NCBI RefSeq assembly: GCF_029338395.1
Contig: NZ_CP119809.1
Location: 1,922,001 to 1,986,000 of the forward strand
DNA length: 64,000 nt
DNA from: Halorussus caseinilyticus
GTDB lineage: Archaea; Halobacteriota; Halobacteria; Halobacteriales; Haladaptataceae
Direction: 5' to 3'
The notes beneath the pieces were generated by a model. The model had not been told where the DNA came from. It worked only from the letters and a program-made list of their open reading frames with translations, and did no database searches. The position numbers and the translations under genes are program-made. Numbering within the stretch: the stretch's first letter is position 1; every line of letters starts with the position of its first letter. Below, one piece after another: positions 1,697 through 60,774 of this stretch.

Positions 1697-1784
1697 CACG
1701 TGGTGGTTGCTGTCGTGGTCTCAAAAGGGGTTCGCTCCGAATCAGCGTCACGACGCGGTGTCGGGAAGTGGTGACGGATACCCA

Positions 1785-1959
1785 GAAAGCCCCCGCCCGC
1801 TCGCGGTCGCTCAGCGACATATCTTCGACTCACCTTCGGTTCGTCTCAGATAGGGGTCGCTGAGGCGACTGAACTGCACGCGAGCGGGCGGCCCCTTTCA
1901 TCCACCCACACGGTGGATGGTGCCACCGAGCGCGTCCTGTTGGTTGGTGGGCCGAGCGC
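1785..1959 (-). repeat. Family A structured repeat, copy A1
   Basis: On the minus strand, 1903-1785 folds as GAAAG/CTTTC, a GGG/GGG internal loop, a 13-bp stem CCGCCCGCTCGCG/CGCGAGCGGGCGG, a 13-bp inner helix with one bulged base, and an apical TATCT/AGATA helix. About 120 bp are identical to copies A3 and A4. The 5' flank (to 1959) carries the GGCCGAGCGC box seen next to the other copies. It fills the gap between the aldo/keto reductase end and tyrA, on the same strand as both. No protein is encoded. Confidence 0.9.
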
Positions 1960-5494: not shown

Positions 5495-5637
5495 GCGCTC
5501 GGCCGACCAACCGACAGGGTTGGATAAAGGGACCGCCCGCTCGCGCACCGCTTGGTCGTCTCAGCGACCCCTATCCGGAGCGAACGGAGTGAGCGACGGA
5601 TACGTCGCTGAGCGACCGCGAGCGGGCGGGGGCTTTC
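5495..5637 (+). repeat. Family A structured repeat, copy A2
   Basis: Plus-strand copy with the GCGCTCGGCCGACC box at 5495 and core 5522-5637. It keeps the 13-bp outer stem, the bulged inner helix and a changed apical helix, TATCCG/CGGATA instead of TATCT/AGATA. The tail to about 5710 includes the shared GCGGTT-CCTGCGGTTGCGG track and a weaker second GAGCG/GGGAG half. The remaining gap to 5829 is A+T-rich (5745-5800, TTCTAAAACAATC-like) and holds no gene. The copy is antisense to both neighbouring genes. Confidence 0.85.
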
Positions 5638-5829
5638 GAGGAAGTCACCGCGGTTCTGGTTCCTGCGGTTGCGGAAACGAGACGTAGCGAGCGACCGGGA
5701 GCGTTCTACGTGTTCGTCGCCGGTCCTAAGCATCCTATTTCGTTCCAAAGACTCATTTTACAATTTTCTAAAATAACTACTTATTTCTAAAACAATCAAA
5801 ATTATGTCTCTCTCCCTTCGTTCCGTCGC

Positions 5830-6393: not shown

Positions 6394-6489
6394 GTACGGC
6401 GACTCTCGGCGGCGCGGTAAATACTTTCTCCGAGGGAAGCCGCTCCGCAACAGCACCGCAACTGCACGACCTACGAGGCGGAAGGCTCA

Positions 6490-6638
6490 GAAAGCCCCCG
6501 CCCGCTCGCGGTCGCTCAGCGACATATCTTCGACTCACCTTCGGTTCGTCTCAGATAGGGGTCGCTGAGGCGACTGAACTGCACGCGAGCGGGCGGCCCC
6601 TTTCATCCACCCAGACTGTGGGCTGGTCGGCCGAGCGC
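6490..6638 (-). repeat. Family A structured repeat, copy A3
   Basis: Minus-strand copy; the core 6608-6490 is identical to A1 and A4 over about 120 bp. The 5' box GGTCGGCCGAGCGC lies at 6625-6638. It fills the divergent gap between the lipoprotein start and the small membrane protein, upstream of the lipoprotein on its strand. Confidence 0.9.
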
Positions 6639-8863: not shown

Positions 8864-9115
8864 TGCGCTCGGCCGACCACCCGCCAGCGAACGCTCGGCC
8901 GACCAGCCCACAGTCTGGGTGGATGAAAGGGGCCGCCCGCTCGCGTGCAGTTCAGTCGCCTCAGCGACCCCTATCTGAGACGAACCGAAGGTGAGTCGAA
9001 GATATGTCGCTGAGCGACCGCGAGCGGGCGGGGGCTTTCTGGGCGTTCATCACGGCAGTTCCTGCGGTCGTTGTGACGATGTGAAACGAGCGAGTGGGGC
9101 TTTCGAGGAAATCGC
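8864..9115 (+). repeat. Family A structured repeat, copy A4, with extended tail
   Basis: The plus-strand reference copy. Two CGCTCGGCCGACC boxes lie at about 8865 and 8891, and the core is 8931-9039. Helices: GAAAG/CTTTC, GGG/GGG loop, 13-bp outer stem, 5' bulge TGCAGTTCA, inner helix GTCG[C]CTCAGCGAC/GTCGCTGAGCGAC, apical TATCT/AGATA. The core matches A1 and A3 exactly. A tail follows with GCAGTTCCTGCGGTCG and a second GCGAGTGGGGCTTTCGAG half near 9088-9106. It lies between aroA and aroC on their strand; nothing else is visible in the 459-nt gap except the aroC promoter. Confidence 0.92.
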
Positions 9116-14817: not shown

Positions 14818-15000
14818 GGAAGCTAGCTACTGCCGACAAAAAGGAGTCACCGCAACCGCACGGCACCGCGACGGCCACGTCCTCCCCAACCGACTCCCTC
14901 GTTCCCTTCGGTCACTCAGTCGTCCCTCGGTAGAGCAAGCTCTGCCGGGCCTTCCGTCGCTTCGCTCCGGAGAGACCTCGCGCGGGCGCGGCGCACGAGA
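14818..15000 (+). repeat. Family B structured repeat, copy B1
   Basis: It begins with a GAAGCTAGCT motif at 14819-14828, then shares 55 bp (14863-14917) exactly with copy B2 in inverse orientation and a later 34-bp block (about 14968-15001, AGACCTCGCGCGGGCGCGGC onward). Between these blocks lies a hairpin, AGAGC/GCTCT (14932-14943), at the place where B2 has GTCGGAA/TTCCGAC. The rest of the gap to 15103 is G+C-rich with no gene. Confidence 0.8.
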
Positions 15001-15103
15001 GCGCCGGGGGACAACCCGCGTCCCCCGAGCCGTCGGTCGCTCCGCTCCCGACGACGCCGCGCCCGCACGCGCCGGTAACGATTAATAATCGACCGAGAGA
15101 CCT

Positions 15104-21772: not shown

Positions 21773-21813
21773 CCGGGAGACGGCCGACGCTCGGTGAACC
21801 GGACCACCGGAAC

Positions 21814-22060
21814 GCGCTCGGCCGACCGACCGCCAGCAGAAGCTTCTCTGACCGGACCACAGGGGGGATGAAGGGGCCGTCCGGTCGCGTTTACGTGGTC
21901 GTCTGGCCGGGCCAGTATTCGGCGCGGGCTGTGCGGAGAGCGCCGAATATCCCGGCCAGCGACCGCGACCGGACGGGGGCTTCGAGAGGACGACACCGAT
22001 TCTGCGATTCGCGGTCGCGGTCACGCCGAGACGAAGCGAGCGGGCGGGGGCTTTCTACGC
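21814..22060 (+). repeat. Family A structured repeat, diverged copy A7
   Basis: Box GCGCTCGGCCGACC at 21814; core 21866-21983. Every helix survives with changed sequence: GAAG/CTTC, GGG/GGG loop, CCGTCCGGTCGCG/CGCGACCGGACGG, inner helix GTCG[T]CTGGCCGGG/CCCGGCCAGCGAC with the same bulge, and ATTCGGCGC/GCGCCGAAT at the apex. A second GAGCGGGCGGGGGCTTTC half ends near 22056. It lies between mct and the DUF5785-like gene. Confidence 0.88.
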
Positions 22061-27940: not shown

Positions 27941-28090
27941 GCCCCATCCGACTCCCTCACTCGCTTCGCTCGTTCGGTCGTCCACCGGCGGAAGCGAGTG
28001 CCGACGCACCTGCGCGAATGACCGTTCGCCCAGACACCTCCAAAGGCACGCGCTGAGGCCCCTTCCGTCGCTTCGCTCCCGACTGCTCGT
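27941..28090 (+). repeat. Family B-related repeat, copy B6, plus a family A fragment nearby
   Basis: CCGACTCCCTCACTCGCTTC and GTTCGGTCGTCC align with B1 and B2. The hairpin position carries CGGC/GCCG (27986-28003), and a second hairpin GCGAA/TTCGC (28014-28029) follows. At 28207-28230 an isolated GCGAGTGGGCGGGGGCTTTC is the 3' half of a family A element. No gene is seen in this 538-nt gap. Confidence 0.65.
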
Positions 28091-34179: not shown

Positions 34180-34345
34180 CCGCAACCGCACCGCGACGCC
34201 TCACGCCTCCCCAACCTCGTCGGCCGCCTCCGGCGGCCGACTCCCTCGCGCGGGTTGGCGCGACCACGACGGTCGCGCCAGCGCGCGCCGATAGAGAATT
34301 AAATAGGATTCTTAAAGCAATATTTAGATACTCTTAAGCAATAGA
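34180..34345 (+). repeat. Family B-related (B3) and C-related (C5) elements upstream of thrS
   Basis: ACCGCACCGCGACG, CCTCCCCAACC and CGACTCCCTCGCGCG echo B1. Then GATAGAGAATTAAATA and TTAAAGCAATAT (34289-34320) align with C3, though the left ATTGCT arm is lost; CTTAAGCAATAG repeats at 34334. A lone GCGCTCGGCCGACC box (family A) sits near 34411. No gene is seen in the 534-nt gap. Confidence 0.6.
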
Positions 34346-34474
34346 AATATATTTTATACGCGGCAGAACGGCTTCACCGCGAACGCTCCGGGGACGCGAC
34401 CACCGAACGCGCTCGGCCGACCACCCGAACAGGCATAAAGCACGTTACCGTGACACATCCTACGGAGTGACACG

Positions 34475-58233: not shown

Positions 58234-58239
58234 GGCGCG

Positions 58240-58560
58240 CGAGGGCGCGGCGCTCTCGTGCGCCGCGCCCGCGCGAGGTCTGCGCGAACGAACGTGAGCG
58301 CAGGCTCGTCGGAACTCGCTTCCGACGGTGGACGACCGAGTGACCGAAGGGAACGAGGGAGTCGGTTGGGGAGGACGTGGCCGTCGCGGTGCTGTGCGGT
58401 GCGGTATGATTGGTTCAAGCCTGAAGCTAGCCTTCACCGACTTCTCGTGTTCGCGGTGCGGTTGTGGCCCTGATTGGCGCAAACCTGAAGCTAGTTTCCG
58501 CGAATCGTCGCTCCGTCTGCGGTGCAGAGCGGTGCTGTACGGTGCCGTGCGGTCCCGCCT
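58240..58560 (-). repeat. Family B structured repeat, copy B2 (extended)
   Basis: Inverse copy of B1: 58338-58392 is 55 bp identical to 14863-14917. The hairpin GTCGGAA/TTCCGAC (58308-58326) replaces B1's AGAGC/GCTCT. Two CCTGAAGCTAG motifs lie near 58428 and 58485, separated by TGCGGTTGTGGCCC-like tracks. No gene is visible in this 554-nt gap. Confidence 0.82.
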
Positions 58561-60527: not shown

Positions 60528-60774
60528 GAAAGCCCCCGCCCGCTCGCCACCGGAAGACGTTCCTGCTCACTGCGTTGCGCGGGCGTGCGACTTCCGAGGT
60601 CTGCGTCGCTTCGCTCCGCAGACGGCCGCTCAGCGACATATCCTCGCTCGCTTCGCTCGCTCGGATAGGGGTCGCTGAGACGACTGAACTGAACGCGAGC
60701 GGGCGGCCCCTTTCGTCCACCCAAACCGCGGTCTGGTTCACCGGCCGTTTCCGGTGGTCTGTCGGGCCGAGCGC
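60528..60774 (-). repeat. Family A structured repeat, copy A6, with an inserted hairpin module
   Basis: Minus-strand copy, core 60718-60528, box CGGGCCGAGCGC at 60763-60774. Outer stem, bulged inner helix (one U-G wobble) and TATCC/GGATA apex are kept, but about 80 nt (near 60548-60626) are inserted between the inner and outer 3' arms. The insert contains its own hairpin GTCTGCG/CGCAGAC. It lies between convergent genes, and the rest of the gap shows no gene. Confidence 0.85.

Follow-up and report, generated by a model that had tools for sequence, protein, structure and literature searches.

A structure-conserved hairpin family of Halorussus caseinilyticus and its haloarchaeal relatives: a probable miniature mobile DNA element

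The window analysed here, a 64,000-nucleotide stretch of the Halorussus caseinilyticus genome (contig NZ_CP119809.1), contains seven copies (A1 to A7) of one hairpin. Copy A7 differs strongly in sequence from the other six, yet keeps every helix. Is such a hairpin kept as a functional RNA, or as a piece of DNA that is recognised by its shape? The original prediction was that structure rather than sequence is selected, either in a functional RNA or in a hairpin recognised by a transposase. Our preferred answer, to which we give a probability of about two in three, is that the A7 family is a structure-conserved miniature mobile DNA hairpin: dispersed, non-coding, about 118 nt long in its standard form, and spreading as DNA.

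Structure of copy A7 and extent of the family

The hairpin predicted at 21866-21983 is present with all its helices, its GGG/GGG loop and its bulge, as is each of the paired changes listed between A7 and A1-A6. In the basal helix, GAAG (21870-21873) pairs with CTTC (21980-21983); this is followed by an internal loop of GGG (21874-21876) opposite GGG (21977-21979) and by a 13-bp outer stem (CCGTCCGGTCGCG, 21877-21889, with CGCGACCGGACGG, 21964-21976). Beyond an 8-nt 5' loop (TTTACGTG), GTCG (21898-21901) pairs with CGAC (21960-21963), and after a bulged T (21902) comes a 9-bp inner helix (CTGGCCGGG, 21903-21911, with CCCGGCCAG, 21951-21959), topped by a CCAG/T loop, TATTC/GAATA and an upper stem. 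The strand folds to -79.9 kcal/mol as RNA (z = -6.1) and to -47.6 kcal/mol as DNA (z = -7.2), and in neither case does any shuffle equal A7. The G-tracts at the hairpin base (GGGTGGG ... GGG ... GGG; window 21862-21876 and 21977-21979), which have equivalents in other copies, may form a G-quadruplex with the hairpin as its loop. The features of the window are collected in Table 1.

Table 1. Hairpin copies, flanking units and inserted modules in the window.
Feature	Position	Strand	Basis or remark
Copy A7, 118-nt hairpin core	21864..21985	+	Helices read from the sequence, folding, covariance-model match
Apical motif (C)GGGCTGTGCGGAGAG of copy A7	21926..21940	+	Exact site holds a ~50-nt double-hairpin insert in other copies
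Upstream U array, ~26-bp units (consensus CGCTCGGCCGACCAACCGCC), ending GGGGGGAT adjoining the hairpin	21785..21863	+	
Downstream D unit(s), ~60-70 bp period, in which the 3' outer arm recurs (GCGAGCGGGCGGGGGCTTTC, 22036-22055)	21984..22059	+	
Hairpin copy, core as in the copies at 6489 and 8920, flanks different	1784..1904	-	Covariance model and comparison
Hairpin copy	5520..5638	+	Covariance-model match
Hairpin copy	6489..6609	-	Covariance-model match
Hairpin copy, in the gap separating aroA-like and chorismate synthase genes	8920..9040	+	Covariance-model match
Hairpin copy with mini-hairpin (GGGTCGCAGACCC) in the 5' internal loop	26722..26844	+	Covariance-model match
Hairpin copy interrupted by a ~90-nt hairpin module (GTCTGCGGAGCGAAGCGACGCAGAC...GTCTTCCGG) that sets its 3' outer arm apart	60528..60715	-	
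Double-hairpin module in family B (second repeat family)	14978..15056	-	
Double-hairpin module in another copy of family B	58276..58332	+	

The hairpin is flanked by degenerate tandem units. In most copies, zero to five strict 26-bp U units adjoin it upstream (e.g. L026 2158-2290 and L020 9150-9283); the D units, about 60-70 bp each, follow downstream and contain further copies of the 3' outer arm. By analogy, the U units resemble a protein-binding array. How many U units a copy has does not correlate with its number of D units (rho 0.13, p 0.43), which argues against nested insertion of whole U-hairpin-D units. The copies at 1784, 6489 and 8920 are identical over about 130 bp and then diverge sharply in their flanks. 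Since these three copies are identical but carry different U and D units, the hairpin is exchanged as a cassette, which either gene conversion or insertion at the junction of U and D could achieve. The flanking modules also blur the ends of the element. At 34350-34450 in the window, a run of U units ending GGCATAAAG has no hairpin after it, possibly marking an empty or decayed site. A separate intergenic inverted repeat pair lies at 27942-28035 and 58278-58371 (94 nt, 82% complementary).

The count of seven copies holds for the window, but the family is far larger. BLAST and profile searches located about 47 copies in the same genome, and a covariance model built from 42 of them finds 104-109 (109 covariance-model matches in all). 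Copies per genome within the genus range from none (G018) or one (G016) to at least 128. Across the order Halobacteriales the distribution is patchy, with the family present in 63 of 146 genomes and named matches in Halorussus, Haladaptatus and Haloarcula. The copy on Haloarcula plasmid pNG500 places an unrelated outer stem (CACGCCGCTGGCG/CGCCAGCGGCGTG) within the same architecture; on this plasmid and the related pHH126 (L045 and L048), a diverged copy stands upstream of a gene annotated as a SOSS complex subunit B family protein. The original prediction did not recognise the family, and the overlap with an Rfam family that we looked for is absent; viral contigs contain no exact match to the repeat. 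The family is abundant and apparently uncatalogued in haloarchaea.

Covariation, fixed loops and the case for and against an RNA

The window alone offers few independent changes, since the copies at 1784, 6489 and 8920 are identical over the hairpin. In a much wider alignment, the anticipated covariation rises far above background. Standard pairs fill 97.9% of the pair cells in the 42 aligned copies from the same genome (40 distinct), and among the distinct copies 12 of the 34 pairs have double-sided changes. None of 500 shuffles matched these copies in paired cells, in double-sided pairs and cells or in covariation score, and the covariation is lost when the partner is slid by 1-3 columns; the number of further pair types is not significant when taken alone (47/500 shuffles). 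For the foreign copies, from other genomes, counts from a structure-fitted alignment lean towards the model to which that alignment was fitted, and we therefore used an alignment made with a sequence profile only (n = 156 unique copies). Its pair cells comprise 4977 Watson-Crick, 64 G.U, 33 A.C and 82 other combinations. Perfectly paired outer stems come in 17 versions among these copies and inner helices in 28, with many CG/GC flips and almost no intermediates.

Against this variation, a few positions are nearly invariant across copies: GGG/GGG, which sits between AAAG/CTTT and the outer stem, GTCG/CGAC, and TAT/ATA beside the C-rich/T loop. The one-base bulge and the C-rich/T loop are likewise kept in place in nearly all copies. 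Structure is indeed what the copies share, but to call it selected, as originally proposed, is too strong given the gene conversion in the window and what is known of template switching, which makes and repairs hairpin stems and leaves multibase compensatory changes (PMC8794818). Inferring selection from covariation is not safe here, because template switching and gene conversion change both arms together, and the two may lie behind part of the covariation. Taken to its limit, this reasoning makes the hairpin functionless, with paired changes arising by mutation through quasi-palindrome correction during replication template switching and through whole-hairpin gene conversion. The common CG/GC flips with their near-absent intermediates fit such an origin, as do the identical cores inside different flanks and the occurrence of outer, loop and inner cassettes in most combinations. 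However, the same process should also have erased the GGG/GGG, bulge and C-rich/T asymmetries, and by itself it leaves more than 100 dispersed copies unexplained. We therefore consider a purely mutational origin unlikely; the survival of the asymmetric loops points to some factor that recognises the fold.

Strong covariation, invariant internal-loop bases, the RNA fold (z = -6.1) and the multi-branched long forms would all suit a family of structured regulatory or non-coding RNAs, transcribed from many intergenic loci, with a fold selected for protein binding. The slight excess of G.U over A.C in the foreign copies (64 vs 33, or 50 vs 33 without pair 48/89) would also fit some RNA-level selection, and counts against a DNA reading. 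However, G.U and A.C are equal in the copies of the same genome (11 vs 11), and the many CG/GC flips cannot have gone via G.U. With genes called by a simple codon-usage script, the copies are intergenic and randomly oriented relative to the neighbouring genes (16 ++, 14 --, 10 -+ and 5 +-; n = 45). There is no conserved promoter-like element in the 150 bp upstream, where nothing is kept beyond the GC-rich U units, and a runs test finds no significant replication-strand bias (P = 0.12). An RNA gene family would also sit uneasily with 0-128 copies inside one genus and with the missing Rfam match. The functional RNA that had been suggested thus loses ground on orientation, on the upstream region, on the weakness of the G.U excess and on the gain and loss of copies between close genomes; the balance of evidence is against an RNA role, which we regard as distinctly unlikely. 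GC-rich, strong hairpins in gene gaps might otherwise serve as transcription terminators or as stabilisers of mRNA 3' ends. Yet gene ends are not preferred (convergent gaps are the rarest, 5/45) and no T-run follows the stem, making this idea scarcely credible; a terminator or 5'-leader role was rejected on the random orientation.

Mobility and nesting

The site of A7 itself varies between relatives. It is plain short intergenic DNA in G015 and G016; in G023 the U sequence runs straight into TTTCGA with the hairpin absent, and in G027 a copy is present. Two genomes that are about 93% identical at two test loci (G012 and G026) have copies at about six loci in common and at several different ones, and three sites were aligned as filled versus unfilled. 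These three sites show no clear target duplication, and their flanks have diverged. As the surrounding intergenic DNA also differs there, each site is compatible with gain as well as with loss, and loss in the unfilled genome is possible. At another pair of loci (L231 in G012 and L234 in G026), two opposed hairpins in one genome correspond to a single hairpin in the relative, with extra intergenic DNA between the two.

A hairpin recognised by a transposase, the other reading originally offered, comes nearer the mark than an RNA, but no transposase or transposition intermediate was found for the element. Beside the copies, no transposase gene recurs, only ABC ATPases and other common families. 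In scale and form the family does match REP/REPIN elements, which are intergenic DNA hairpins of about 100 nt at high copy number (PMC3116915) and would be moved by a Y1 tyrosine transposase (RAYT or IS200-type); haloarchaeal genomes commonly contain PATEs, which would derive from IS605-type elements, as well as small mobile repeats (PMC3119063). However, the Y1 transposase profile (PF01797, Y1_Tnp) has no match in the genome of A7, with its 109 copies, nor in five other copy-rich relatives (G011, G013, G014, G017 and G020), and mean copy numbers are 55.9 per genome with Y1 and 48.1 without. With Y1 absent from the genome itself and unrelated to copy number, we reject mobilisation by RAYT/IS200 transposases and find it very unlikely that the family belongs to either group. 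Terminal inverted repeats shared with a transposon of the genome would mark the element as a MITE, but no pair of arms was seen enclosing a transposase gene. We also looked for an autonomous parent whose long terminal repeats would be the hairpin arms; the isolated 5' arms instead lead to minimal, truncated or module-bearing hairpins, and this parent was rejected.

Element lengths fall into discrete classes: the shortest are no more than an outer stem closed by a small loop, and the longest reach about 460 nt. The additional hairpins of the longer elements are found for the most part at one of two fixed positions, in the 5' internal loop or in the apical loop. Some of the minimal forms resemble the long form after a deletion between its GCGAGCG repeats. 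The apical motif CGGGCNGTGCGGAGAG, as found in A7, is empty at 28 sites and occupied at 15. Most occupied sites hold a module of about 50 nt bounded by GGTG, which has the properties of a double-hairpin element: two adjacent hairpins inserted as one unit into an otherwise intact site. This module also occurs outside the hairpin family. A second dispersed, hairpin-rich repeat, family B (CCTCCCCAACCGACTCCCTCG... / CGCGCGAGG...), is found in the window at 14850-15080, at 58238-58400 and near 34210-34290; its inverted copies are 97% alike over 71 nt and have the same double-hairpin module aboard.

With its high and variable copy number, intergenic and randomly oriented placement, presence and absence between relatives, helices conserved independently of sequence, and modular nesting, the A7 family has more in common with small mobile DNA elements than with RNA genes. 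We infer that it spreads as DNA, and the mechanism we propose is equally an inference. A strand left single during replication or repair would fold into the hairpin, and further intergenic sites could then receive a copy, made by template switching at the fold or by a structure-reading nuclease, recombinase or transposase supplied in trans. Through gene conversion, the copies would become more uniform as whole hairpins and exchange inner cassettes, so that both arms of a helix would change together. What is kept would be the folded shape with a few fixed contact positions (GGG/GGG, GTCG/CGAC with the bulge, and TAT/ATA by the C-rich/T loop). More tentatively, the family may even represent a new class of archaeal mobile DNA read by shape: a hairpin of about 118 nt with fixed internal-loop contacts, spread by a candidate structure-specific enzyme of the host or the element, and itself parasitised by a double-hairpin element of about 50 nt that enters the hairpin tips and builds nested trees of up to about 460 nt. 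Covariation usually counts as proof of a functional RNA, and the repeat family in which we see it resembles mobile DNA. With hundreds of copies and close relatives for comparison, this family allows one to test to what extent selection on structure can be mimicked by template switching and gene conversion.

Comparison with known systems

The nearest analogues of the A7 family are REPINs, the small mobile repeats of Haloquadratum and the hairpin elements of mitochondria. REPINs are also intergenic DNA hairpins of about 100 nt, many per genome and patchy between strains (PMC3116915). The A7 family shares the many dispersed extragenic hairpins but, in its own genome, not the associated Y1 (RAYT) transposase, and on that count does not qualify as a REPIN. 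It differs further in carrying nested modules and in having U and D arrays at its sides, and inspection of the aligned copies by eye found no GTAG/CGTC-type tag of two inverted REP units. PATEs and IS605-type termini are non-coding haloarchaeal elements with palindromes (PMC3119063), but PATEs have near-terminal palindromes around a core, whereas in the A7 family the entire element is a palindrome, and the genome of A7 lacks a Y1 gene.

By description, the family can be set beside the small mobile repeat SMR-A of Haloquadratum walsbyi, which is likewise haloarchaeal, about 110 bp long, dominated by an inverted repeat and present at high copy number (PMC3119063). SMR-A has no reported target duplication and no known mobiliser, and inserts into the palindromes of other elements (PMC3119063). 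However, most SMR-A copies are more than 95% similar to others of their type, and their insertions fall mainly in PATE/IS605 elements, whereas the A7 family varies strongly in sequence while keeping its structure.

The module of about 50 nt is close to the mitochondrial double-hairpin elements of Allomyces, at least as these are outlined in a later paper (Paquin et al. 2000, cited in PMC7218506). The Allomyces elements, in that outline, and the repetitive hairpin-forming elements of sponges (PMC2800124) are short hairpins (single or double in Allomyces) in intergenic DNA, optional between relatives and with no mobiliser known. Both differ from the present elements in belonging to organelle genomes and in having unrelated sequences, and the host hairpin here is larger and forms a separately conserved family. 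Nesting of hairpins within hairpins, for which mitochondria provide known cases and Haloquadratum a hint, is found here in an abundant haloarchaeal family.
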